From assembly GCA_017506865.1 (NCBI GenBank), contig JAFCMP010000073.1, positions 1 through 64,000 on the forward strand: a stretch of DNA of 64,000 bases, in the 5' to 3' direction. Positions within the stretch are counted from its first letter, which is position 1. Each line of letters begins with the position of its first letter. The position numbers and the translations under genes are program-made. The notes under the pieces are model-generated. The model saw only the letters and a list, made by a program, of their open reading frames with translations, had not been told where the DNA came from and did no database searches. Positions 4,393-45,200 of this stretch are shown here, piece by piece. Source of the DNA: Tribonema minus. Its lineage: Eukaryota > Sar > Xanthophyceae > Tribonematales > Tribonemataceae.

Positions 4393-7300
4393 GACGCCTA
4401 ACCAGCTGCACTACCGGCGCTGTTCCCGTCTGACAGCTATGGGCACTGCATAACCCCTTCCCACAGGCTGTCTGCCGGTTTAAACCTATTGTGAGTCACA
4501 AAGGAGTTCATCACGATTGTCAGCAAAAGGAAGTCATGCAGGGCACTACAAAATGAGAAGAGCCGCCATCGTTGATGTAAAACATCATGTTGCAGTATTG
4601 GTGTTGGGACACCGGTGTGTCAAGCTGCATGCATCTGTGTACCAGGCTACTGGAGCTCGGTTAACTTACACTTGAATCGTTTGACTTGCACCTGAAGGCA
4701 TCTCTGTACACGCAGACATTGATGCTGCACCCTTAACAATATACAGCAGAATACACGGTGGTGGTGACTAGTTAAATGTTGATCCATTACCAGTGTCTCA
4801 CTCAGGAGCTGGTAATGCTCCAATTGGAATCAACATCCAGGTGCAAGCTGTACATGGTTCACAGACCACGTATGGCAAATTACACAATCCTTCGATCGAC
4901 ACACTGATGCCGTAAATGAGTTCAGATATACTGTCAAGGGCAACATAGCAATCCTGCACAGCGTATGCTGTGAACTGAGTGAATGCACCTGGCTCACGCA
5001 CAGAAAGCAGCCGCATCGCGGGCCCGAAGCACCACGTTCGCAAATTGATCGCACAAGTGCACGACGCTGACGACGTCATATCAGTTCTCTGAGTTGAAAT
5101 GTACCACTGGCTTCATGTAGTACTTTACGACTAGATGCCAATCATCTGGGCTTTTTCGCGCCCTGAGCGAGAATTAATAAAAAGTACTTTACGACCAGCC
5201 GCTATTGCGCGCAGCTTGAACCACGGGCAGCAGAACCACAGCACATACGAACGACAACTTTGCGAGCTGGCACGCGCTGCAGGGCTCGTGAGAGCTGGCC
5301 GCTCAGCGAATTATGGGCCATAGCAGCGGCAGCAGTTATACACGAATGCTCGCAATGCAGGAACGAGCGGTATATAGCCTATATATGTACATGCCGTGGG
5401 CTCTGCTTGCGAAAACACAAAATCATGCAGCACCAGGCCTTCTCCATCAACAAAGCACATCGTACATGTTGCCGCGAGCAGGCCATCGTCATAGCGACTG
5501 CATGTGCACGTACCAAAGTACTTGGCGAATCAAACAACTGCCTGCCCAAGCGGGTGGCTTCTTGTTTGCTCGTGCTGCCAAGCTCAGGAGCATTTTCAAG
5601 TGATGCATTGCAGCACGTGAGGGCGAGAAGAACAGGCTGAAGAACAGGCTGAACAGGTATACATGGAGGAAACTAAACATGGTGTTTCAATGGTTTCTGG
5701 CACCTGGTGGGCGCTGGTGTCCGCACGAGCTATCGCCACCACCCCAGCTCCTGCGATTTTGTGCCAACACCTTCAGAGATGTGGAGGCCGACGCTGATCA
5801 CGCGCGCGCAATGCACCTGTAGGCAGCAGCAGCACCTCCTTCCTGAGCACCTTCGCAACGCTCCCAAGGGCCGCCTCTGTGCGTTGTGTATCAAAGCAGC
5901 CTACCACACGCGATTTTTTAATGCTGCGGCACCGCTCAGCAAAGCTGGTTTGCTCCCGACCCCTCGGCGCCAGGCTCCAAAGGCCTATACTAACCCTAAG
6001 TAGGTGCGTCTCCAGTGCTGCAATTTAGGCGGGGCATCAGTGGTAACGTCAGAGCTGTGGCATGAAACAACAGTACTGCACAGGCGCAGCAGCGCGCAGC
6101 TGTTGGCTCGCAATGACTACGTTTATGCAGGGTACGAAGTTGAGTCCACCGTGGCATCGTTGTCCGGCAGCATCAGCGGCCAGACAACTTGTTGAACGCA
6201 CCTCCTGGTCCTCGGCATCTTGCTCATTTTCCCACGCTTATGAATTCAATAACTTTATCCAGCGCATGAGACACCGCACCAAGATCCACAGGTGCGCCGC
6301 TTCCAGTTTGCTTGCTCTTATCTGATACCTTAAGAATTCCTCATGTCACCCTGCCCACTGGCATCATGATTGAGAAAAGAGGCAGCATTCAATTTGGCGG
6401 CCTGTAGGATCGTGGAGGCATTCTGAATTATTCACAGCTGCCATCATGATTGTGATTGCGGTTAAGATGTGATCGAGCCTCTGAGAAGTGCCGTCCGCAC
6501 CGTCATTCCTAGGCTTGAAAAGCCTAGGTCTTAGCCGCAGGGGCGTCAATACGAGAAAGGTATGTGACACTTTCGCAACTGCTCCTGATGGGCGAGCCAG
6601 GCAGCGATAGGGGGAGCGCGCTCTGCAGACAAAGCCCATGCGAGCTCTAGGGGGAAACTATACGCGCCCGCATAGCTCGCGCGAGTGCCTGTGTGCAGAG
6701 CGACACTAAGGGTTGTCGGCCTTTTATCGGTCGAAGCTGAGGAAGGCAAATGAAGACCCGATAGCCGGCGCGCTGCCGAGACTCCTTCTCGTTGAAATCA
6801 ATGCTCCACTTATCCACGTAGCTGTGCCAAGGCTGGCTTCATCCAGGCCTGACAATTACCGGTGGAGATGCTCTAAGCCAGCCGCGCTCTCGCAACGCAA
6901 CTGGAAGTAGCCGTCATTTGCGCAATTCTGTCGACACAGTTGTGTAGTACCTCCGACGCCCAGCAGTTCCAGGCATGCGCGCCACAACCTTCAAGTTGAC
7001 ATTTCATCTTGAGGTTGTATATTATGTCCTTGAGGTTGTCGCAGACAGTTTTGTGGTAAAACGGCAGGCAGCGCAGGAATGTGAAGGAGGCAAATGTACA
7101 GGAGACAGCCTCAACGCCGGGTGAGCAGACTTGATGCACTACACGAATATCCAATGCCGGCACACGAGAGATCCAGCTTTGGCATTGGCGCTACAGGCTT
7201 TCACTTAATCACGACTTGCTTAATGCACATGCATGGCGTGCTGTGTACCACCAGTGTCGGTGGCCCAAGCTGTCAGAGGCACATTATGTAGTTGCTCCGC

Positions 7301-22999: not shown

Positions 23000-23135
23000 G
23001 CTGCAACATGTTGGCGGAGCCCAAAACGGGTGGACAGATAGACAAGGACGTAGTGGGGGGGGGGCAAGTACTATTTGGGCAAATGTAAATAAAAGTTTGT
23101 CAATGCTAAGTGAGACACTTCAAGTTGTCACAAGG
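23000..23135 (+). repeat. R1 dispersed repeat, copy c, next to the LINE 3' end
   Basis: GGGTGGACAGATAGACAAGGACGTAGTGGGG, a poly-G run, ATTTGGGCAAATGTAAATAAAAG and the terminal GTGAGACACTTCAAGTTGTC match the second half of copies b and e. It ends about 80 bases beyond the LINE stop codon, so the LINE 3' end and this repeat nearly touch. Confidence 0.65.
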
Positions 23136-26100
23136 TACGTATGGACTTGTATTTATAAAGGCCCAAGGGAGGCCGGGTTGCCTATGCAATCGAAAAGCTT
23201 GCGTCAACGCAGCAGCCTAGTCTGCGCTGTGCCCTAGGAGTTTGGATACCGGCGCCGCAACACAGCCCAGCATTCGCGCTCCACGTGTGTATGCCATGAC
23301 GCGCTCCGCCAACTCCCGCGCCAGCGATATGCTCAGCTCAATGTGGATCTGACGCTTAGCTAACCCGGCCTTGCGTAACACATCTGCCTTCCCCCCCCCT
23401 GAGCACAGTGCTGAGTGCATTGCCAACTCCTTAACAAAAAGGCTTGTCTGCTTGCCCAGCCGTCCGTACGACTCCTGCACGAATGGCACAAAAGCCCAAG
23501 ATGACGTCAAGGTGCCGGTGTGGTGCTTGACCTTCGCGTCCTCCCCCACCCCAGCAGCATAGCCGTCCGTGTTCGAGGCATTTGTTTTGCCTGTCAGGTA
23601 CGAGCTCGCTGTGGGTGCGCGCACACTTGTGTCTAGCACTATTCCCTTGTTACGGTATGCACTGCTAAAGTGCAGACACCCTGGGTCAATGACTGTGTCC
23701 GCCCGATACCCCGGTACCTTGAAGACGCTAGCGTCCTCATTGCGGACAATAGAGACATGGTGCTGTCTCAAGATGCGCTGTAGGCACCGCTTTTGGGCAG
23801 TGTGTGTCGCGTTGTGCCCCCGTATGTGCTGGCTGGGGCAGCTGATCGCATGCGTGGAGGTGGGGCTCACGTCACTGCACCGCCATGGGCACACCTCGCC
23901 CTGTATGCCCCACCCGTCTATAAAGATCGCAACCATAATCATCGTGGCTGCTGCCATACTGGACATGGGCGCCGCACCCGGGCGGTCATTGGCAGCGGGT
24001 GGCACGCTCATCCACGCCATTGCCCCGGACGCACGCTGGCTGCGCAGCTGCGCCAGGACCCGCGCGCTAGCCTGTTGGCGGCGGCGGCTGGTGTCACGCA
24101 AGTCACCAATAAGTGTAGCCTGCGTCGGCTTGCCCACGGCACCAGCCGAGGCAGCCTCTAGGTCCTCCACCAGGCAGTCCTCGTATTGACGTCGAAGAAC
24201 ATTTGAAAGGCCGGCTTGTAGTCCGTGCGTGAAGTGACCGCGCCGGCGGCGGGGCACTACCTTTCTGCAGATCTCGTCAGCATAGGCCTCCCAGTCGTCG
24301 TCGTCGTCCTCCTGCCCGCCGCTGCAGCTGCTTTCTTCCGCGCTAGTTTGTGTTTTAGCGGGCGTGGAAGAGGCAGCCGCGGCAGCGGCTTGAGGGCCAG
24401 GTACGGTCGCCGCCGCAGCGGCCGCCTCGGCGCCAGGCACAATGCCGTGGGTGTGTGGGGCTGGCTCAGTGGTCCCCGTCTCCGTGACGGCAGTTGCGGC
24501 GTAGATCGCTTGCACCGCAGTGGGGAGCGTCGACGCTGCGGCCGTTGTATCCGCTGCCCACCGTAGCAACGATGCTGGGAGCTGCTCGGCCACAGCTGTG
24601 CGTGATTTTTCGCCGCCATCAGCTGTCAGCGCTCGCGTAGAGCGTCGCACGGCCTCGATGATTGGCGGCAGTCCCTGGTCCTCGCGTATTGCGCATGAGT
24701 GCTGCGCGAACCAGGTGACTGCGCCGTGTTCGTCAGTGCCGAGCCTCAGGGCCCCTGCTGCCACAGTGGCATGAATTATTGCAGGCCGCAGTGTTGTGCA
24801 TGCCTGGGCCGTGTATGCGGCTGGTGCCAGTAGCCCCAAAAGCGGCATGCCCAGACCGCCTCGTCGCTCCGGCAACCGTGACGCCCGCAGTGGCACTGCG
24901 ATGTCCGTGAGTTCTGGCGGGCCCAAGCGCGGCAATACCAGCACGCTGCCACTGCTGGCTACCTCATTGTCACCAGCAGTGCAGGCGGCCAGCAGGTGTG
25001 ACTTCATGACTGCCGCGGTAGCGCAGCCGTGCAGGTGCAGCATGCGTTCAAGCGTCCATGCACAGAACCCGTCAAATGCGTGCAGCCATGTCTCACTCAA
25101 AGCCGTGTCAACGACCCGAGCTAAGAAGCCCATGCGCTTTGTCAGTGACCTGCGCAGAATGAATTGTGCTGCCTGTAGGTGATGCCGCGCCATCCCAGCT
25201 AGCTGCCACGACAATCGCCATGTCCCTGCGTCAACAAGATGCTTGCTCATGGCAGCATGCACATAGGCTGGGTGCCCTACCGGTACCCCGACCGACGTAA
25301 AGCCCTGACTGGATTCTGGCATGGTGGCGTCCACAAACGGTATGTCAAGGGCGCGCAGGCGTGCTCTGGCCGCTTCATCAAACACTGTGCCGCGCATGGC
25401 AATGGCCAGCGACTTGTCTGGTCGAACGCGTAGGCCCCCTGCCGCAAGCCGACGGATCACCTCTGCCACCCCAGCGGCCGCTGCATCGTCGAAGTAGGCA
25501 GCTTGCAGCACGTTGAGGTCATCCAGGAAAGCGCAGTGCGGGGCTGGCGGTTCCGCTGTGCTGTGGCCGTAGGCCGGCATACTGCCGGGCGTCGCACTCA
25601 CTCCATCAGGGTAGAAGAGTAGGAATGCCGCTGCCACTGCAAAGTACAGCGGCCCTAGAGGGTCCCCTTGCTGGCACCCTAGGTGGGAGCAGATAATGCG
25701 AGCTTCACCGTTCACCTCCACTCGCATCTCTGGGGCAGTGTCACCACAGTATACGGACTCAAAGTGCGGGAGCAGCTCCGGACAGAAGAGCATAAGTCCC
25801 CGCACAATGGCGGCGCGATCCACACTGTTAAATGCGTTCTCACAGTCCAGCTGGATTGTGGTGCCATACAGCTCGTGCCACACGCGCGCGCGCGCTGCCA
25901 CATGCTCGACGCCAGACCGGTATCCTACGCCAAACTGCGACATGGAGGCCAGCAGCCCCGATATTTTGCCCTTGACACCCCGTGCCGCTGTGGACCCGAG
26001 GAGTCTGCGCCAGACACTGGAGCAGGCGATCGGACGCCGCTTCTGTCCTATGCCTGAGAGGGCCGCGGCGCGGAGAAGCCGTTGCGATTGCTCCGGCAGC

Positions 26101-29100
26101 AGTTCGGGCTCAACAAGCAGCGTCGTGAACACCTTGGCCAGGTGATGGGCGAATGCCGGTTCCATCACATCCGATTCTGAATCACCAGCTAGTCCTGGCG
26201 AGGCACTGCCCACGGGGCGGGTGGCTGCTTTCACTGGTGCACCAGGCCCAGCGGCCATCAAGAGGTGTTCATAGCGTAGGCCGTCCAGCCCTCCTGCCTT
26301 CCCCGCCCCTGCTGCGGACAAGGTCGACAGTATGTCTGTCGCCTCCACCTCGAGGCGCCGTCCGGCTGCGCTGGCAGCATCCTCAGGCCTATCGCTGCGA
26401 TCATGCGCCTGACCCGATTCGAAGACGGGACTGCCGCTGCCAGCGGGCCCGGCGGTCGTTGCCACCCCTGCGCCGTGCAAGCAGTGCCGCCGGGCGTCGC
26501 GTACCAGGCCGCGCACTTGCTCCATTGGCGTATCGACTACCCCGGGCCGGGTGCCAGTTTCAGGGTGCTTTGCTGCCAGCACCTGTGCCGTGACCTCGTC
26601 TGCTGGGGCGCATGCTTCACGCGCCTCTAGTCGTGCGGCAGCCAGGCCTACCCCCCGTCGCTTGCCTGAGAGGGCAGCGCATGCTGTTTGCTGCCTGGAG
26701 TCAGCCTCCGTCCAGTCGGCATCGAAGTTCGTTTGTGCCGACGCCGTAGCTGCGTTGTTTGGTTTGGGGGCCCGCAGCGCCGCTGCTGCTGACAGCGTCT
26801 TTCTCAGTAGCTCCGCAAAGTCGCCAGACAGCAACGCTGCCAGCCGGGCCGCAGGCGGCATACCGGTTCCCTCCGGTTGCCTACCAAAGGCCATTGCTGC
26901 TAGCAGGTGCAGCAGCCTGTAGCCGCGCTGCACTAGAGTCTGAGAAACCTGATGAGCAAACGCCCCGGCACCATGGTGGAGGCGCACCCGTGCCGCCTCA
27001 CGTGCACTGTCTGTGGCGTCCGCCAGTAGTCGTGTGGCGTGCTCCACTAGCCGTGCCCACTGGGTGCACTGCAGCTGAGTGCGGAAGGGGTTGGCAGTCG
27101 TGGTGAACCGTAGCAGCAGTAGATCCGCCTCATTGGTCTGGTCAAGTGCGTGGACGACCGAGGGCGTCGAGAGGTCCCAAGCCAGGGATGCTCGTGACTG
27201 GGGCTTTGAGGGCCTGCCACTGGTGGTGGTGGTCGGGGGGGGCGGTGACGCGGCATCGTCCGGCGGGTCCAAGTCCATGTCCGCCCATCCCACGGCCGTC
27301 CCGTGGGGGGGGCTGCTGTCCTGCAGCCTTAGGCTGTTAGACTGAGTGCGGCTGCCGGCGCTGCCAGGCGGTGCTGCAGCAGCTGCCGTTCGGCGCCGGC
27401 GTTGCGCGCCGGTTGCCGTGGCCGCCGGGCGTTTCTTGCTGGACTTTGAGTTGGCAGCGCCACTAGCCGGCACCGCCGGTGGCTTTGGAGGTGTCGCTGC
27501 GGCAGCCCCCGCCGCCGCGGCCGCGCCGTCGCTACCCGCACCCCCGCCCTCGGACTGGCCCGGGGGTACTGCCGGGCGTGCGCGCGTGGGGGCGCTTCCA
27601 TTCCGTCGACACGTGTGGCATGGCGAGGTCAGCGCGCATTGCCTCTGCCCCGCGCTGGCTGACATATGGACCAGACCGCAGGCACCTGTGCATGCACTCA
27701 GCTTCCTTACCGCCCGTAGGAAGTCTTCTGCCGTGCAACCATACATGGTGCTCATCTCCTGCACACGCTTGGCATGGTGTGCCCCAGTGTTGCAGGTACT
27801 GCTGCCTGAAGGGGCACGGTCACCGGATGGGTCGTGATCAACCTGCTGCCGGATGCCCTTGGCGTATGCTGCCGCCAGATTTTGCTGACAGTGTGATGTG
27901 CTCGCCTCAGGGTTCAGCATCGACCTCGTGCAGCTACCACCGTTGAAGTGGGCCACTACCGGTGCCATGCGGCTCGCAGCTGACAGTTTGCCTCGCTGTT
28001 TGCTGTCCTCTTTCTGACCAAGCTGCCAAAATGCCAGTGTGCATAAAGGACACCTCAGTGGCTCAGGCTGCTGTGGCAACTGCAGCGCAGTACGGGGCTG
28101 TGTCCGACTCGGAGCCGTGATGTGGGTGCTGTTAGCTTGAGTGGTCGCCGACGCTGTCATAGTGGTTGGCAAGGGCGGAGCTGCCGCAGGGGCGACAAGC
28201 AGTTCAAAGTGTCCCACATTTGTATATAGCCCAGGCGGCGTCCACAGCACATCCAGATGGCAGTCAGGCTGAGCTGGAGTTGCCGGTGCGAATACCGCTG
28301 GCAGCCCCATCAGTTGTGCCAGCACCAGCCCTGTTGATTTTTGCGTGCTGCCAGTGGCCTGAGGCTCGGCCTGCCACACCGTCACCGAGACCGCGTAGAC
28401 CGCTGCAACAATGGCCCACACAGACAAACCGAGGGGCCGTCCCCACACGCCCTCTTCCTGTAGGCGTTGCAGCAGGAGCGTGTGCCCGCTGTCCGCGCTG
28501 TCCGTTTCATTTGTGCCGTACTCGATTGCGAGGCAGCGAGCGCGTGTCCCGTACGTGTCGAATTGTTCACGTGTACACGCAGGTTGGGCTGCTGCATGCG
28601 CGGTCAGTTGACGCATCGATGACATGCTGGCCCCTTGTTTGCCCGCCCCCTGCGTGACGTATGCCACCATCCCGTCCAGCAGTGCCTCTCGCATGGCAAT
28701 CACCAGTGCTGGGGCCGGCAGTCCGTGCTCAACTGCGACGCTGTCTATGCCGTGTAGAGCTGTATGAATCAGGCAGTTGCCGTTGCCCACGTTGCTCACG
28801 GGGCGAAGCTCCCCACCACGTGCTAGCGTCGCTGTGTTTTCCCCAAGCGCCTGTTTGTGGAGTGCCTGCAGGCCCGTGTGCCAAGTGGAAAAACCATAGT
28901 TGGTGGCTTTTGCCAGCGCGTCTTGCTGCTCCTCCACGGTGACTGTATGGCACACGGTTGAGGGTATCCGGGTCGCCACCGTCACGGTGGTGACCTTCGC
29001 CGGCCCGGATATTGGTGCTGAGGGGGCAGAGGCACCGCCCCTCGGCGGTGTGGTGGCTGGTGCCAGGGGTGCACGAGAATTGTCGCACTGGGCCTGTCGC

Positions 29101-30499
29101 TCCTGCGTCCGCCGTCTGTGTTTACCTCTGCGTCGACTGCGCTTTCCACTGGCAACCATAGCCGTGACAGGTGCTGTCTCGGTCATTGTTGCGTGGGTGC
29201 TGTTATCACCAGCCTGCGTTACGTCTGACTCACCACGTTTCCCGGCTGGCTGGCGAGGCGACCTGGCAACGACCGGTTCCCTAAGGGAGAGTTGGTCAAA
29301 CACCGTTGCCAGGTCATTACCTTCTTCTCGGAGGGAGAGCAAGCTGAACGTGACCGTCAGGTCATGCATCTGACTCACCAGCGGTGCGCAGGAAGTCCGG
29401 CCCAGCAGGGTCTGTGTTGCTGGCGCGTCGCTGGGCGCCGGCCGCATATGCAGTCGGCGTGACGTGCGGCAGGGTCCAAGCTTGGTACCCGTCGGCCAAG
29501 CGCAAAGCACCGTGACGCGTGCCCGATTGGGGGCAAGGGCCAGTGCACGTACCCTGCGCGCGAGTGCGCCAGCCGCCCCCAGCAGGCCTTGCCAGTGTGA
29601 TCCCGTCGGGTCCCTGGGGCATTCGCTAGACTGAGCGCCCGCTGCGACAGCAGCTGCGGCACTGCCAGGTGTGCTGGGCACACGATCGTTGCTTGACATC
29701 GTTGCGCCGCTATCGCTAGCACGACTTTCGCCAGGCAGCACACCCATTGTGCTGCTCCGGGTCAGTCTCGGCAGCGGCGCATCTGCCACACCGTCCAACG
29801 TAGATGCATGGGCTTGCCTGGGGTCTACCCCCAGGTGCTCGCATCCGAGGAATTTGCGTATGGGACCACATTTGCTAGCGGCGGCGAGCAGCGCGGCTGT
29901 TGGCTTCAGGCTATTCCCCCCACCAACAGCTGCACCACCCGCTGCCGCCGCGCATGTCGTTGGTCGGGTGTGTATGTCAGCAATGTGATCATGGCCTGAT
30001 GCACGGTCACAGCCTGACAGTGTGCATGCTGTCGCGGCGACCGGGCCTGCGAGGCAGTCGGCGCAGCGCCACACGTCGCACTGGTCCAGGGCCCCTAGAT
30101 CACCAGATGGTGTCGTGGCGCTTGCTGCTGTGCGTCTGATGAAGAGGTTGCCGCACCCGTCGCAGACCTGCTCTAGGCCGCCGTATATTGGTCGGTGGTC
30201 TAGGAAAAGCTGAACATGCAGTTCTGCAAATTGCTTCCCTTTCCCTGTGTGGCGCGTGCGCTGGTGTGCACATGCGTGTGCCGCTGGGCAATTCTTTCCC
30301 GGGGCCCGAGGATTTGCTCGCACTATGAACTTGTCGCACATGCGGCAGTCCAGCCCCGGGATATTGACCTTCCGGTTGGCAGCGGGTGTCTTGGCGGGCG
30401 CCAAAACTGTCATAGCGGTGATGCCGGATATTGGGTGCCCGTTGCGACTGTTACCGTCAGAGGTGACGCTGCCGCCTGACAGAGAGGCGCCGCTGCCAG

Positions 30500-31135
30500 C
30501 TGGCTGCAAAGACCGGGACGTGATTCGTCTCTGGTGACCCGCCGGCCCAGGTTCGCCAACTTCCATCGGTACAGGCATGGTCACGGTGACCGGCTTTGCC
30601 AGCGCACCGCCAGACTGTGGCTCTGGACGGGTGACGCTGCCAGTGCTTTGGGCGCTGGCGCGGCGCCGACCCCGCCGGGGTGCAGCCGCCCCACGTTCGC
30701 CGCCCGGTGCAGCAGCCGCTGCGGCCGCTGGTGCTGTTGTCACCATGTCTGCAGTACATGGGGTTTCCGCTGCGGTGACCTCCATCGGCTGAGGACCGGG
30801 ATGCCACTGGGGAGAGGCGCCGCTGCTAGCTGGCTGCGAAGGCCGCGACGTGATCCGTCTCTGGTGACCCGCTGGCCCACTGGTAGGTTCGCCAACTTCC
30901 ATCGGTACGGGCACGGTCGTGGTGACCGCCTTTGCCAGCGCACTCAGTTTGCCAGACGGCGACTCTGGGCGGTTGATGCTGCCAATGCTTCCGAGGCGTC
31001 CCAGGGGCGGCCCGGCGCTGGCGCCGCGACGCCGACCCCGCCGGGATGCAGCTGCCCCGCGTTGGCCATCTGATGCGGCAGCGCCTGCCGGCGGTTTTGG
31101 CACCATGTCTGCCGCACGTGGCGTTGCCGCCGCCG
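30500..31135 (-). repeat. tandem duplicated module in the LINE N-terminal region
   Basis: Two units of about 110 codons carry the same order of motifs: RGAAA(S/P)RRGRRR, then a Ser/Gly-rich spacer, then VPVPMEVGEP and AGHQRRITSR. They differ at many positions, so the duplication is older than the copy itself or is diverging under relaxed constraint. Confidence 0.8.
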
Positions 31136-31689
31136 TTAAGTCGGAGGTAACCTTGCGACCGCATGCAGCGGCGGCTGTGACAGTCGTCCGTGGCTGTGCA
31201 ACCACCGGGTTGGCCGGTGCGGGCCCCGCCGCTGGTGCGGCAGTGGCAGCCGTCACTAAAGGCGTTTTCCGCCGCGAACGTCGTTTTGGCATTGGCGTTG
31301 TCGCTACTGGTGAATCCGGCGGCAGTGTCGCCCGACGGCGTTTATTTGCCGCTGGTGGCGGTAGTACCACCAAGCTCAGTACAATCATCGCTGCTGGCGG
31401 CAGTGCCTCCCGTAAACTCGCCGCTTGAGACTCCGAGTCACTGGCAGGCTGATGCCGCGGGCGCTTCGTCTGTGAGCATCCCCTGTCACAGTGATTAGCG
31501 GCACCTGGGCTAGACAGATGGCGGCGGCGCTTCTTGACGTGCGCGTGGCTGCCACTGCCCTGAGGCTCGTCCGAGTCGGCTGACGACAAGTGTAGTCTGC
31601 GCATGCTTCTGCACAGCTCTGCAACCTGACTGCACACTGGCACCTCTGGCATCGGCCGCGGTCTAGAGCTCTGGGCCATCAGCTGAGGT

Positions 31690-31880
31690 GGTGGCGGGCC
31701 GGGTATCGGTGGCGGGTCCGGTATCGGCGGCGGGCCCGGTATCGGCGGTGGGCCCGGTATCGGCGGCGGGCCCGGTATCGGCGGGGGGCCCGGTATCGGC
31801 GGCGGGCCCGGGATCGGCGGCGGGCCCGGGATCGGCGGCGGGCCCGGGATTGGCGGCGGGCCCGGGATCGGTGGCGGCGG
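31690..31880 (-). repeat. 18 bp minisatellite encoding PPPIPG repeats
   Basis: About ten units of CCCGGTATCGGCGGCGGG type (plus strand), with GGGATCGGC variants to the right, encode a PPPIPG array inside the LINE ORF. Unit length is a multiple of three, so copy-number change keeps the frame. Confidence 0.9.
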
Positions 31881-32098
31881 CGGTATCACTAGGCGTACCC
31901 AACGGCCAACACCATGGCGGCGTCTGCGGCGTGTGTCAGATTGGCGTGCAGCTTTGACCTGCCACCACCACAAGCCAGTATTCAGCCCGTGGTTGCGCTG
32001 TTCCCGTTTGCGTTTCAGAGGTGACCCCTCCCCACGTGAGGCAGGGCTGGTAAGCCAGTGGAGAGCCATAGCTTTGAAAGGCGACTTTGAGGCGCGAG

Positions 32099-32121
32099 AA
32101 AAAAAAAAAAAAAAAAAAAAA
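32099..32121 (+). repeat. A23 tract at the 5' end of the LINE frame
   Basis: A run of 23 A on the plus strand (T on the LINE sense strand) follows GAGGCGCGAG and precedes GAGCCCAGGCTC, a 5 bp inverted repeat. It may be the tail of an older retrocopy into which, or next to which, the LINE sits, or part of the LINE 5' region. Confidence 0.7.
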
Positions 32122-32156
32122 GAGCCCAGGCTCGGTCTCGAATGCGCGGCTGCCAA

Positions 32157-33259
32157 CCGCGAATACTCCCCTGCACAACTGTACCACTTTCAGTTCAAGA
32201 TCCCGTCCTGCTCTGGTGTATCTGTTGAGGCGCTTCTCCCGCCGTCGTGAAACGAGCGGTGGTGGAACGAGTCGGTGTGCTCAAGCTCTCTGCCTCTGAC
32301 CAACACAAGGCAGCTGGGCTGAATGCAATGCTGTGCAATTCGTGTCCTTGCCGCTGCAGTGTCGTGGTCCTGTCGTGTCTGTGCGTGTGCTGAATGCAGT
32401 CAGTCTCTGCCAGGCGAGGTCCCTTGTGCGGCTGCAAATCAAGCTGGTCAGCAAGCGTTCAAACCTTAATCTGGTGAACTGCTATCTACTGCCCTGCGAT
32501 CCAGTGTGCCCTAGGTTCCCCCTTCCCGATCCGTCGACGGCGATATCGTCTGATGTTTTGTTTTTTTTGTTTGTTTTTTTTTAGTTTGCCCTTCTTGTGC
32601 TTCGGCCGATGTCGCTGTGTGCGTAGGTAGCTTTAGCAATATCAATGCGAGGCTTACTTGCTTACACCGGCGACCCACGCTGCGTGTCTGGCCTTGTTCG
32701 CCTCAGGCCCGCGGTGGAGCGAAAATCCGCTCTCTAGTCCTCGGCTGTAGCCAGGCCGACAGGTTGAGCGTGCGGTGCTGCTGTGCCCTCAGTGTCCCCT
32801 GTGCATCCTCGCCTTCCGCGCCGCCGCTCCGCCAGCGGCTCCTCCTTCGCTGCCTCCTCCTGCCGCTCGCCCGAGCAGCAGGGCGCTAAGCACGGTACTG
32901 AAAGACTCTTGGTGGAAGCTCAAAAGTTCAACCATCCCTTTGCGAGAATCGACAACAAGCACTACCCGCAACAGAAATCATGCCGCCTGCATTCTGCAAT
33001 ATCTGCTTTTACATCGATGCACCCCCTTGCTTTTTCTACGGTCTTGACATGAGCTCCGGAAATCAGCGACTTGAAGTTTAACTTCCAGATATGAAGTTTC
33101 GTTCTGCCAGATCTGGAGAGCTGTGCAGGTGGTTGCCGGTTGATGAGGAAGTGGTAGTGTAGAATAGTGTGGCGTTGCCGATGAGGCCTGTTGCTTCTTG
33201 GCTCTGACCGGCAAGAGCTCGTTTGTGGCGGAGGAGCGGAGCAAACCGGCAGCAGCAGC
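32157..33259. other. LINE 5' flank and upstream region of the protease gene
   Basis: This should hold the LINE 5' UTR and the promoter of the EGY-like gene. Open frames are short on both strands. A T-rich tract lies at 32554-32583. I see no target-site duplication that fixes the LINE 5' end. Confidence 0.4.
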
Positions 33260-39200: not shown

Positions 39201-42200
39201 ACTACAAGACGCTTGAATCTGCCTTGGGGAAATCGTCTGAGGCTTGTTGGCTCGAAAGCCGTGCGTGCCTTACTACTAGGGCACGAAACACGGGTGCAAT
39301 GTACTGATTTAGATGAAAGCGTTGAGTAGCTGGCATGCACAATGTAAATGCACCTTACTGACATGCACATCTCTTTGGCAGTAGCTCGGCCAGCGCAGCG
39401 TGGCGTTGAGTCGGTGAAACGAAGCTAGAGCTCGCTTTGAGAAGCCACTGCGTCCGAGCCGAGCCGCTACGGGGTCAGCTATATAGAAGATACGTTCTCT
39501 CGTCGGTGCTTGCTCGCAATCGCAGTTGCAACGCACGCTCACGCTCCTTCCACTTGTTGTTCCTTGGGAATAAGAATTATTAGAGCCATTCTGTACCCAA
39601 TCTGGTGTGAAATATCATGAAAAACAGTGGCGTCGATCATGAAGGGCCGCTGATCAGGTCATGATTTTCACGACGACCTTTCAGGGTCGATGAAGGAAAC
39701 ATGGCGTGATTAAAGAAGTGCGAGAACATTTCAGCCAATCAGACGGCGCGGCCGAACATAGTGCGTATGCCAGGCACTCGGTGGCGAGGCATAGTGGCTT
39801 GCGCTGCAGTCGTTGCGCGTGCCGTGGCCTGTGGGAATGCTGCTAGTGCCAGCAGCGCTCTGGCGCCGTAGTATGCGCTGCGTCGTCAGCAACCTCTGAC
39901 GCAGGTCACACTGATGAACCACACAAATGCTTCTGTCACGAATGTTGGTACGGAACGCGGCACGTGAATCACGCCAGAATTCATGGCTGCACAAGCCGTA
40001 CAGAATGGCTCTTATCCCCAAGAACTTCGGCCCAACCCAACTTCAACGGATTTATTCTCGAGAAGCTCACGAAAACAAGCACACGCAGTGTGTACGAGAT
40101 TTTCACTCGTACCGCGCGTTATCAGCTGGTTACGCGTACGAGTTATTCCGTGGCCACGGGTACGAGTTAAAACGCGCGTCAAAAACTCGTACCTGTACGC
40201 GTGCCACAGGTGTACGCGCTACCTCTGCCTCAGCCCATGACGAATGGTAGTCATCCGGCCAGAAAATTCAACACATGTTGGAGCATATGACATGGGTAGT
40301 TGTGTGTGTCTGCCAGTGAGTGACGAGCTATAGTCGACACCTGGTTGACTGACGCATCCATGGGAGGTGTTGTTGATGACACCGTGTTCGGTGAGTACTG
40401 CACTTGAAGATGTAAGTTGACACAGTAAGCGCTACAGTTGCTGCCAACATCATTTTTCATCATAAAGAAGGCACAGCCAGATGCAATCAATATGAGCAAG
40501 CCCTGATGCAGTGCGGTGACATGTGCATGAACCAGTGGGCAACCTTGTGTCTACTTAGTCTTAACACCATAATGAACAATGATGCGAGGGCACACGTTTC
40601 ATTTGAGTGGGTCTTGATCACATGGATAGCCGCATATTGGGGTACGGCGGAGGTCAGTAGGGGCTATCACAGTCCTGTACGTCCAAGTCTTGCAAATGTG
40701 CTGTTGATCGCGGGAGTATTTGACACTCAACAGTGTTAAAGGAAGGCAAATCTCATGCCCAACACCATCGACTGCATGTACTTGGCGCGCACCTGCGTAG
40801 GTATGCATGACAGGCAAGATAAGCATATGAGAGGTGTGCACGTGCGACAGTGATTCACAGAGATGCTACCCGGTAGAGTTGTGGTTATGCCCATTTCTTG
40901 CCTCGCAATATTGCTCTATGCCCAACATGTTCTGCTTGTATGCAGCATGTCGCATATGCAGTTATCGCCGAGCTACCTTAAAATATAACCCTTCTTGCCC
41001 CTGCTGTCAGGTAGAGGAGTTGATGGCGAAAGCGCAACAGCGTATTGACGCGTGTGGCCTAAACAAGCGTGTTCGCCTTATGGTGCTCAGAGACCCTACA
41101 GAGGCGCGTGCATTGTGGCGAATGCTATCATAGGTTGATTGTGCGGCTTCAAGGCGCAAGTTACACAAAAAAATGGTATCACAGTGCTCGATGTCACAGT
41201 GCGCTGTGAGGCACGACTGTCACAAGAAGTATGTAGTATAGGTATGCCTGTGCATGACGCTAGCACCAGCTCTCATAAAATTCAGCCCTGTCAGCACTGC
41301 TCCAACTCTTTGTGCCCGTAGTATAGTAGAAGTAGATCCATAGACTGGTATGACTGGAACAATGTATGAGCGTCTGAAAATGAGTACACTTCAAAGCCGT
41401 CGACCCGACGTACTCTCTGCGAGCAAGTGGCTCATGGGGCAGAGCTGAGCAAGGTGGACTCGTAAACAGGGCTGTAGTAGAAGGTAACGCACTACATGGG
41501 CATGACATGTTATTCCTCCGTGAAGTAGTGGGCCTCATTTTTTGTGAAGCGTCATGCATTGCCTGATCCAACGGTCATGTTGGAATGACACAAGACAGTA
41601 GCTGATCGGGCATACCATGCCTTCGATCACTCCTAGCACCGCCTAGCACATTTACATCAAGAGGGCAGCTGAGCGTTGTGCAGCGGTTGACACAGCCTGC
41701 ATGTCTCTGTCCATCGATACAGACTCCGACGCCGGCGGCCGTGCCAGACAACCAACGACCTGCAAGTGGCTGGAACGCAGCTGAAGTCATGGAGTGGCGC
41801 AGGCGTGTGCACAACTATGGCGTAGCGCAGTGCCTGGGCCAGCTCCTCTACCCGCAACTGTTCAATGCCGACTTGCAGCGCTTCCTGGTCGTGGCAGTGC
41901 CCATCGACACTGCCCCAGCATCACCGGCTGGCGGCGCGGTGATATCTATTGATGCAGCAGTGCTCTCCCTGCGCACTGCCGCCGACATTGTGGCAGCATC
42001 GGGCGCCGCTGCCGCCAGCGCCGCTGCCGCAAGCACCGCATCTGTCAGCACGCCTGCTGCTGTTGCTGCTGCCCCGCTGCTCGACGCCTTTGCTGCCGCC
42101 GTCTCTACCGCCGGCACCGGCATGCCTGCGGCGCTGCTGCTGCTGGCGGCGCTGCAAGCGGCGCATGAGGCGGGGCACGCAGCGGCAGCACTTGCGCAGC

Positions 42201-45200
42201 GCATGAATGTGCACTGGCCCCCTCGGCCCTTACCATTGGGACCCTTTGGCGCCTTCGGAACCCTGCTGCGCCCTGCCTCCGTACCGCCGAACGCTAGCGC
42301 GCTGTTTGGCTTTGCGGCAGCGGGACCCACAGCAGGCGCTCTGGCTAGTCTGGTCATGCTCGTTGCAGGACTGCAGGTAAATGTGGCTTGTGCTGGCCTT
42401 GTGTATCTGGCTCATAGTACGCTTGCAATTGCAACAGGCTGCAAAGTTTAGGTTTCCTGTTCGGAGCGGCAGCAATCTTTTCACCATGACTTTGGCAAAA
42501 TGACGTTCTTGAGCTGGAGTCGTGTTTGTGCTAGATGGCAGTTTTCAAACTGACATCTGAGGTTTGCATGCTTGTCTGCACACTTGATGACACCACAACA
42601 AAGCAAGGTTTGCTCTTAGATGAATCAGGCGTCTAGCTCATCAAGGTGTACTTGGATCGTTGTAAGGCGCAGCCACTGTCGCTTGCATTGAAGCTAGCTC
42701 CTTGGGCTTATTTGGAGTTAGGCGCTCGGTCTAACCTCATATAGCAGCAGCTCAATGCTCAGTAGCGGCACCTCAATGCCCAGAAGCTGGAAAAATCCAG
42801 CAAGATGCACCCTGTATTGCAACTCCTCACGCCAGCCTTCCTGCAGGGCACAACACACACTGTGCAGGTGCCTATCACGCTTGCCATCATGAACCTGCTT
42901 AAATTGCCACCTTACGCGGATGATTCACCACATACATGATCACATCATTTCTTTGTTGTTTTGCCGGTTTCGTGTCCAGGCAACGGCAGCAGCTACGCCT
43001 GCAGAAGCAGCACTCTTCCCCTGCATGTCGACACATCTGCTTCAATCCAGTTTCCTGGTTGGCAACATAGTCAACGCCGCACTGCCCAGCCTGGGTTTAC
43101 ATGCATCGGATCTTTCAACGTCAGTCGCGCTGCACCCCATGGCATATGCTGGTGCTGCTGGTCTGCTGCTCAACGCTCTGCAGTGGTGAGTCAACCGGTG
43201 TGGATGTGGCGTCTGCAGTCATGTCATGTTGTACAATTCCGTCCTGCCAGTGAATGGACTGGACTCACCGCTGGCAGAAATTGAGGCGCGCATCCCGATA
43301 CCCTACAAGTTCATTGCAGTTATCCACTGGCAGTCACACAGCCTCTCACCTTCCTGTTGTCAAGGGTCATGGTTAGGGTTAGGAGTCGGCAACTGGTGCC
43401 TTGGTTAGCATATTCAAGCGATCATACCATGCCAAGCGCAGATTCGCCTGAGCTGCGCTTAGTACAAGATATTGTAGACGCCTTGGCAACGATAACATGA
43501 TGTTACATGCAGCATGAAGCAGTTGAAATCGATTGAAGGGCTTGCAAGGTCGCTGATCTGTGCTTCTGATGGTGGCCCCGGCGATCTTTGCACAAGAGCC
43601 ATGGTAGCTTGAGGGTTAGGGTTAGCACGTGTTGCACTGAATACATTACAGTATACTGTGCCTGAAGCGCAGTGAAGACAAGGTTGCTGCATAGATGTGA
43701 ACGTTAGCAGCACACTGGTCATCTGGCCTTCCATGAGGCTTGTAGTACGAGTACAACAAAGACTACAATAAATTCACATCAATCTGAAACGCTACAGTAC
43801 GCATGCAAGCAGAACAGAGCTGCCACCACAGTTCAGCCTGTTCGTGGCCTGCCAAAGTGCAGCTACGGGAGCTGCATGCATTTGGTCTGCATATATTTGC
43901 CTGCATCTGTATGAACCCAAGTCGAACTTTGCAAAGAGTCCAGTGCTTGAATTATTGCTGGCGCGTGATGCATATGATGGCACTACCTAGATTGTGCCAA
44001 AGCTATGTGATAGGTGGCCTGAAGCTTCCTATCAAGAGCAGCAGCCCGTTTGTCATGTGTCCATGAAAAACATTGGAGAACTTGAGCAGTATCTGCCCAG
44101 GGTGCAAGTACTTGTCACATGCTGCCCAAATATCTGAAATGATCGGTAGAGAACACTCTCAACACTTGTTGCACACCAGCAGCGCATGCTGAAGCTCCTG
44201 ATAGAAACTGCGGCACTGACGACTTGTTTTGCTGTCCTACTGCTTCCGCCCTGATTTTCAGCATTCCGCTAGGAGGCACTGATGGGGCGTCTCTTCTTGA
44301 AGCAGTAGGGCCGAGGGTACCCCATACCCCCAGTGAGCTGGTCGGCAGTTTCATCAAGGGCGCCGCAGTTACTACCGCGCTGGTGTGTGTGGCGTCACTC
44401 GCACGTGCCACATTTTTTGGAGATGCGACGCACCTCCTTGGAGGATACTTGCAGGACTCATCTGATGACTATGGGCAGGTACTTGCTCCCGATAGACTTG
44501 TGGTATGCTGTAAAGTTACGCCTTGGAGCACTTTGATGATGGTACAAATTTGAGCACTCCCCTTGGCTTGCAGGATGTGGCATGTAGATCTTATGGTGTG
44601 CATAGGCTGTTGAAGAGTGTGGCTGCAAGTTTCACGCTGTCTGAAAACGTCTCATAAAGCATGTATACGTACGACTTTGAACATCATAAACGTAAGCACT
44701 CTATGTATGTAGGTAGATGCGGGCAATCAAGTTTTCGTCACCAGGCATTAGCGCAGTCAAAATCAATGCCTTCCATTATTGATTGTCAGATAAGAGTGTT
44801 GTCAAGTTGCTTGTCAGTCAGATGGTTTTGAATGCAACCTGTGGCACGACCCAGTCACCTCATGATGGCGTGATTCTTAGGTGGTGGCATTGGTTGGCAA
44901 GACGAGAAGTGTCAGCATTTGATGGAGATTGTCGGCCAAAGCGGTCCTTGTGACTCCAGCAGCACCATATGACACATGGCTGCAGGCATTACTTCCAAGC
45001 TGTAGGGTAGGTTGTAGGTAGGTAGTTCACTTGATGTATATATTTTCGCCCAACGCATTCAAGTGCTCCCGACCGAATATTTGCACTTGCTGCTGCCCCT
45101 TTGCACGCTCTCTCAGGGCTCCATCTTGACTGCGTTTCTGCCAGTGTGGGCATATGTCATGGGCCGCCCCTGGTCGCGCGTTGCAGACGAGCGGTTGTCA

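Follow-up and report, generated by a model that had tools for sequence, protein, structure and literature searches.

Structure of the element at the locus

A 64,000-nt stretch of the Tribonema minus genome (contig JAFCMP010000073.1, positions 1 to 64,000, hereafter the window) was analyzed, and it holds a retrotransposon that is well supported as a long interspersed nuclear element (LINE) of the restriction-like endonuclease (RLE) class. The window begins with a telomere array, (AACCCT)n with a few variant units, at positions 1-496, and therefore represents a eukaryote chromosome end. The coding frame of the element, on the minus strand, ran without interruption for 2,979 codons counted from a TTG, and the remaining five frames across the same interval (23217..32156) contained 47-91 stops each. 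An earlier account made from the letters alone (the sequence-only reading) had described an 8.9-kb frame with no interruption; this was confirmed, and the minus strand, which that account did not state, can be added. The earliest in-frame ATG is residue 30 (window position 32069), so the run of phenylalanines upstream of it is probably untranslated, and residue 30 is presumed to be the start codon. The arrangement is best explained by an element RNA that yields one protein of about 2,950 amino acids.

The element is bigger than its frame. Comparison with five other copies placed the 3' end (..GTCCATAC) at 23139, and comparison with copies C119 and C62 placed the 5' end at 32900. The 5' regions of twelve further copies were fetched, which showed the junction in seven, three of these at 32900. 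The main features are as follows.

23139..32900 (-), whole retrotransposon, 9,762 bp, from comparison with other copies
23217..32156 (-), open reading frame, 2,979 codons from TTG
32070..32900 (-), 5' untranslated region, if translation starts at the presumed residue 30
28167..28829 (-), OTU-like cysteine protease region, residues 1110-1330, from motif pattern and conservation
24807..26366 (-), reverse transcriptase (RT) region, residues 1931-2450, from the RVT_1 match, R2-type PDB matches and alignment with a sister family
23811..23891 (-), CCHC zinc knuckle and GHN, residues 2756-2782, from the motif, also found in the sister family
23427..23810 (-), RLE region, residues 2783-2910, with D2820, D2842, and K2875
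23139..23216 (-), 3' untranslated region, short and lacking poly(A), from copy comparison
23135..23138 (-), GTAC target next to the 3' end, from 3' junctions and target-site duplications

Copies of the element and their conservation

The genome (158 Mb in 554 contigs) was searched for further copies. With the RT (651 amino acids) as the query, the best 68 of 1,629 candidates were scored, and all 68 were 100% identical and free of stops. The frame length was at least 2,977 in 17 of these 68 copies and shorter in the other 51, with 44 distinct lengths. With the OTU-like region as the query, all of the best 146 scored (of 390 candidates) were stop-free at 99-100% identity. The first of two finger-like Cys/His clusters, described below, gave matches of 93-100% identity among the best 150 scored of 254, three of them with a stop, and this span indicates at least one further subfamily. 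Because the copy lists show the best matches only, older copies are understated. Nucleotide identity to the window copy was 99.1-99.6% in the 5' regions of three copies and 99.4-100% in the final 166 bases of five copies, a stretch that includes the target word.

Truncation at the 5' end was seen directly in copies C61 (at 27238), C71 (at 27155), and C93:223302 (at 27924), and slightly in C38 (at 32816; all window positions). The upstream side was fetched for nine of the shorter-frame copies, C61, C71, and C93:223302 among them; C92 and C76:152891 matched nothing where a complete copy should continue, and C93:267340 was uninformative (wrong place).

We also compared the window copy with two full-length copies of another subfamily, L099 and L100, using the ratio of nonsynonymous to synonymous change (pN/pS). 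Over the whole frame the ratio was 0.30 and 0.28; it was lower in the RT (0.17 and 0.13) and in the knuckle and RLE (residues 2741-2979; 0.18 and 0.23). Between the subfamilies, amino-acid changes were fewer than silent ones. The first finger-like cluster, at 0.94 and 0.55, does not appear to be clearly constrained. L099 and L100 differed from each other by 23 synonymous and 24 nonsynonymous changes, a ratio of 0.38. The element is probably a young one, present in many copies, that has spread recently and is still mobile.

Insertion sites

The 3' junctions of 26 copies were read, and GTAC or a one-base variant of it adjoined the 3' end in all of them. In a set of 20 copies the word was GTAC in 16, GTGC in two, GCAC in one, and GTTC in one; in a second set it was GTAC in the window copy and in four of five further copies, and GCAC in the remaining one. 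GTAC occurs at 238 of 53,635 positions of the window outside the element, and against this background 16 of 20 corresponds to a P of about 1e-34 by a simple binomial with the motif picked after the data were seen. The flanks of the 26 copies differed from each other and had GTAC alone in common; ribosomal DNA (rDNA) itself was not compared. The search of the same genome for copies and insertion sites that the sequence-only reading had suggested thus gave many near-identical copies with GTAC at their 3' junctions. Exact GTAC beside 21 of 26 3' ends, with one-base variants in the other five, would also fit a word that is the element's own 3' terminus and no part of the target.

The 5' side, which bears on this point, was viewed in 18 copies, and the junction was found in 12. 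L043, L071, and L072 were inside the element and L076 was uninformative, and the 5' side of L074 and L077 matched nothing, which fits truncation closer to the 3' end. A target-site duplication (TSD) was taken as the shared stretch starting at the 3' junction, and it contains the motif by construction. TSDs of 9, 12, 6, 11, 13, 12, 11, and 8 bp were present in 8 of the 12 copies with both junctions read. A TSD of at least 8 bp was found in 7 of 12 true pairs in comparison with 0 of 132 mismatched pairs, and one of at least 6 bp in 8 of 12 true pairs and 11 of 132 mismatched ones, where the maximum was 7 bp. All eight copies with a TSD had the motif before the 5' end too, as GTAC in general and as the variant GCAC in C38, which carries it on both sides of the insertion. 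Because the motif is repeated in the TSDs, GTAC is the target sequence, and a GTAC that belongs to the element's own terminus is very improbable. The copies show the hallmarks of target-primed insertion, namely precise 3' ends, 5' truncation, and TSDs. A telomere-specific element was also considered, the window copy being 23 kb from the telomere, but copies were present in many contigs (no null count was made) and the idea was rejected.

Reverse transcriptase, zinc knuckle, and putative endonuclease

Pfam was scanned with the whole protein (up to E 5) and with five pieces. RVT_1 scored 27.8 bits in the whole protein, just below the cut-off of 29.6, and 31.1 bits in the RT piece; beyond it, an irrelevant weak RPB9 ribbon was the sole match. 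A PDB search with the whole protein gave chance matches or none. The RT contained LDCENAF with D2104, QQGDPLGP, and FLDD with D2212/D2213, so the aspartates that had been reported as in place are confirmed.

A sister family was found in the same genome. Its representative, L065 (C35:1325800-1330900), encodes 1,399 amino acids with RT, knuckle, and RLE motif and without the OTU pattern, and is 29% identical to the window protein over 611 amino acids (E 4e-38). The C-terminal 505 amino acids of the sister protein had at least 85 identical copies (the best 85 scored of 3,353 candidates), and the N-terminal 447 amino acids gave 90-100% identity among the best 94 scored of 880. Of the 19 sister junctions read, 14 had CAA directly after the 3' end (L078-L097; 20 were fetched and L079 was unread). 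The two families are alike in the knuckle and RLE motif, in having many identical copies, and in a short word beside the 3' end, whereas the sister protein is shorter, lacks the OTU motif, and has a CAA-type word instead of GTAC. By eye, beyond the stop and short 3' end of L065, a second, inverted copy of the sister 3' part lies tail to tail with the first at about 4775-5101, with a few bases between.

A two-sequence RT profile made from the window and sister families (A1) was used to search the PDB. The best matches were 9nl3 (R2, 1.3e-5), 9dou (R2Tg, 1.7e-5), 8gh6 (4.7e-4), 8ibw (0.0039), and 9nl2 (R2, 0.012), so that R2-labelled chains were three of the top five. Both 8gh6 and 8ibw are labelled reverse transcriptase-like protein, and we take them to be silk moth R2. 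Weaker matches were an irrelevant oxidoreductase (0.071), LINE-1 (0.15), and an RNA-directed DNA polymerase (0.17).

The zinc knuckle, CX3CX8HX3C at residues 2756-2773, fits a pattern found in 1 of 20,000 shuffles, and the pattern of knuckle plus RLE was found in 0 of 20,000 and is present in the sister family too. PMC5678591 gives the R2-type knuckle as CX2-3CX7-8HX4C and places the catalytic lysine first in KX2KY; the spacing here (HX3C) is one position off, and the lysine motif reads KVKHH, in which only the first lysine of KX2KY is retained. The sister family shows a matching D...D(V/T)(T/S)(V/I)R order. No Pfam profile matched the RLE in the scans of the protein and its pieces, and structural support was absent. 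Of the earlier claim of an intact CCHC and RLE, then, the knuckle and D2820...D2842...K2875 stand, while KX2KY is partial and profile or fold support is lacking. The broader claim, that of an intact RLE-class LINE, is well supported by the 68 RT-identical copies (17 of them full-length), the lead of R2-type chains in the PDB, and the knuckle and RLE motif in the sister family.

The OTU-like region

Residues 1110-1330 were examined for the protease that the sequence-only reading had placed there. The region contains C1128 in GNGNCL, WG at 1238, and H1316 in GHFELL. A three-part pattern, G(D/N)G(N/D/S/A)C(L/F/M/Y)...WG...(G/N/S)H(F/Y/W), occurred once in the protein (1124-1317) and in 0 of 20,000 shuffles, whereas its Cys part alone occurred in 11 of 20,000; the pattern was composed after the sequence was seen, partly from host OTUs. 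Residues 1075-1335 of the window copy were 98.9% identical in amino acids to those of both L099 and L100, top of nine regions each time. When the whole protein was compared by tblastn with a set of host loci, many of them fetched for their OTU, the best match joined the OTU-like region to an OTU of L015 (E 0.07-0.19). The region is thus about as well conserved as the other parts of a functional protein.

Interpretation and contrary evidence

We consider it likely that the window holds a young, still mobile algal LINE whose RLE reads GTAC and which carries an OTU-type deubiquitinase as an accessory.

Several results weigh against this joint reading, and many of them concern the OTU-like region. 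No OTU profile in Pfam reached threshold with the whole protein or its pieces, and a phmmer search of the PDB with the region was empty up to E 10. A home-made profile built on five host OTUs scored 6.4 bits in comparison with 5.3 for the best of 300 shuffles, which hardly separates the two, and an AlphaFold model made from the single sequence without an alignment had a predicted local distance difference test score (pLDDT) of 40.7. The pN/pS of the region was 0.35 and 0.28 from small counts (4-5 synonymous and 4 nonsynonymous changes), and it is no better than the frame average because silent divergence there was also low. The comparisons with L099 and L100 are not independent, since these copies are close to each other. 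As for the catalytic part, the RT of the window alone matched no RT chain in the PDB, and the AlphaFold model of the RLE region had a pLDDT of 32.1. The C-terminal parts of the window and sister families gave no significant alignment, so that support for the RLE comes from motif and position and not from profile or fold. Three of the nine shorter-frame copies (C223, C168, and C107) were still inside the element along the fetched stretch, and their frames are therefore broken other than by truncation. Finally, no TSD was found at the window copy, C76:197273, C112:781837, or C71 among the 12 copies, and mismatched pairs also reach the 6 bp of the C38 TSD, which is therefore not significant alone.

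Because profile matching failed, the OTU claim depends on motif pattern and conservation, and the OTU identity of residues 1110-1330 is plausible, not proven. The Cys and His motif that the sequence-only reading had reported was present; the profile match it had proposed to look for at about 1110-1330, and whose failure it had named as refuting, was not found, nor was a PDB match. An RLE-class LINE in which these residues adopt a different papain-like fold, or are a dead remnant or a spacer that has GNGNC by chance, would agree with the want of profile, PDB, or fold support and with the weak home-made profile. This is rather unlikely, because the three-part pattern was in none of the 20,000 shuffles (though it was written post hoc), the region led nine others in identity (though silent divergence is low too), and the best tblastn match of the whole protein, though weak and from OTU-enriched loci, fell on an OTU.

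Proposed mechanism

In the mechanism we favor, the C-terminal RLE would recognise GTAC and nick the first strand, leaving a 3' OH beside the motif, and the RT would prime there on the 3' end of the element RNA. A second nick 6-13 bp away would then create the duplication. Residues 1110-1330 would, less surely, act as an OTU-type cysteine protease (C1128, H1316) with deubiquitinase activity, which might shield the LINE protein from turnover or trim ubiquitin off host factors at the insertion site. As the sister family lacks the motif and spreads nonetheless, the OTU-like domain would be an accessory gain and not copying machinery.

The main rival function is polyprotein processing, in which the protease would cut the N-terminal part away from the RT and RLE, a role like that of the OTU-like protease of turnip yellow mosaic virus (TYMV). 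The OTU-like region does follow a long N-terminus, mostly of low complexity, and precede the catalytic part, and the TYMV OTU-like protein is described in the text available from PMC5695851 as both polyprotein protease and deubiquitinase. We regard this function as quite improbable here, as the sister family spreads without the OTU motif and the account of the NeSL/Utopia protease in the available part of PMC4640811 mentions no processing.

Comparison with known elements

The window element resembles R2 in the order RT, CCHC knuckle, RLE (as given in the passages at hand from PMC5678591) and in the top PDB matches of the RT profile. Unlike R2, its protein is more than twice as long (R2 chains are 1,114-1,390 amino acids) and has the OTU-like region, its sites are dispersed GTAC words and not 28S rDNA, its knuckle spacing is HX3C and not HX4C, and the second Lys and the Tyr of KX2KY are not conserved. 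The nematode NeSL and Utopia-1_TSP are described in part of PMC4640811 as RLE LINEs with N-terminal fingers and an N-terminal Ulp1-like cysteine protease, with spliced leader or U2 genes as targets. The window element would be like them as an RLE LINE with an N-terminal cysteine protease, here a putatively OTU-like one, and differs in having no Ulp1 match and in its target, GTAC in place of spliced leader or U2 genes. On target, then, the element belongs neither to R2 nor to NeSL/Utopia. It appears to work like an R2-group LINE, with CRE, NeSL, HERO, and Dualen as candidate clades.

The whole protein had no Pfam match to apurinic/apyrimidinic endonuclease (APE), RNase H, or Ulp1, a weak negative that a diverged domain could escape, since the same scan misses the RLE and OTU-like regions. 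This is consistent with the earlier observation that APE and RNase H are missing. Dualen/RandI carries RNase H, and a 2005 paper on Dualen reportedly describes a cysteine protease in it. A derived Dualen/RandI member with its APE and RNase H lost and its cysteine protease retained would make the protease shared and not separately gained. Dualen/RandI elements, which have APE besides RLE, are mentioned in PMC4640811 and PMC3636483, and LINE/Dualen is described, in the part of PMC12747079 at hand, as expanded in all compared cryptophyte genomes except Guillardia theta. The plastid of the host bears on this point: 92 matches to chlorophyll-binding proteins were found in the genome, and a piece of the best one had fucoxanthin chlorophyll a/c proteins as its top PDB match (3.8e-29), which indicates a red-lineage, chlorophyll a/c type plastid. 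Given the expansion in cryptophytes, Dualen-type elements do occur in algae of this plastid type. A Dualen origin is nevertheless unlikely: no APE or RNase H match was obtained (the weak negative above), the RT profile was best to R2-type chains, though no Dualen chain was noticed in the PDB, and the sister family shows the knuckle and RLE motif only. As for the separate acquisition of a protease proposed in the sequence-only reading, the OTU-less sister family fits either a gain here or a loss in the sister.

Mobile elements with an OTU are known among DNA transposons. Ginger1 elements carry either OTU or Ulp1 (as stated in the portion at hand of PMC2836005), and some Helentrons carry OTU-like proteases (likewise PMC6431247); both are mobile elements with an acquired OTU, as the window element may be, yet DNA transposons and not LINEs. 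The choice in Ginger1 between OTU and Ulp1 parallels that between NeSL (Ulp1) and the window element (OTU-like). Among the open-licence literature matches listed (titles, abstract starts, and passages; Repbase reports were outside this scope), none described an OTU domain in an RLE LINE. RLE LINEs are described in the passages at hand as inserting into repeated sequences (rDNA, spliced leader genes, U2 genes, or microsatellites) or without clear specificity.

A wider reading, which we offer tentatively and hold somewhat short of even, is that a chlorophyll-c alga harbours a lineage of RLE LINEs whose families each have a short, restriction-enzyme-like target word (the palindrome GTAC here, a CAA-type word in the sister), and that one of them independently gained an OTU deubiquitinase and is now expanding as near-identical copies. 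If true, this would add a LINE to the OTU-bearing mobile elements (Ginger1, Helentrons). A LINE keyed to a four-base palindrome would offer a simple means of studying how an RLE recognises DNA, and with OTU-bearing and OTU-less families in one genome the role of the protease in LINE spread would be directly testable.

N-terminal region of the protein

The N-terminal part contains four further features.

31693..31877 (-), array of 18-bp tandem units that encode a Pro-rich IPGPPP repeat
30482..31136 (-), low-complexity N-terminal module duplicated in tandem, copies 30812-31136 and 30482-30776
29952..30347 (-), N-terminal Cys/His cluster, finger-like, residues 604-735, no meaningful profile match
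27609..28055 (-), second Cys/His cluster, residues 1368-1516, between the OTU-like region and the RT, noted by eye, no Pfam match

The duplicated N-terminal modules described in the sequence-only reading were borne out: 30482-30776 and 30812-31136 were 73.7% identical over 331 nt, with the peptides MEVGEP and GHQRRITSR common to both. The fingers of that reading were not confirmed as such, being Cys/His clusters without a meaningful Pfam match. In the 5' part of the element (32099-32190), a long A/T run beside a tRNA-like stretch was noted by eye; ARAGORN found no tRNA anywhere in the 64-kb window.

Other observations in the genome and the window

Viral contigs were scanned with the RT, the OTU-like region, and profile A1, and no relatives were found. 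The strongest RVT_1 matches of the genome were considered as relatives and rejected, since the three frames read, of fourteen stretches, look like Ty3/gypsy polyproteins. By eye, L018 and L019 are Ty3/gypsy-like long polyproteins with a cytosine DNA methyltransferase-like segment (VVDLGAGIGSS/VVDLGGGIGSS, IENVPE/IENAPE).

OTU matches in the host genome were found at 13 places, none of them in the window or at the listed element copies. Eleven were fetched wholly or partly, and the frames read at nine were by eye Helitron-type, host-like, or virus-like. L013 and L014, Helitron-like by eye, carry an OTU match close to the N-terminus of their proteins. In two contigs (L031 and L032), exon-sized OTU-like frames had neighbours that resemble clamp loaders and ankyrins; by eye, this may be an insertion that came from a large DNA virus. 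Elsewhere in the window, a frame of 257 amino acids at 41678-42451 (+) had a weak Peptidase_M50 match of 19.6 bits, below the cut-off of 27.2.

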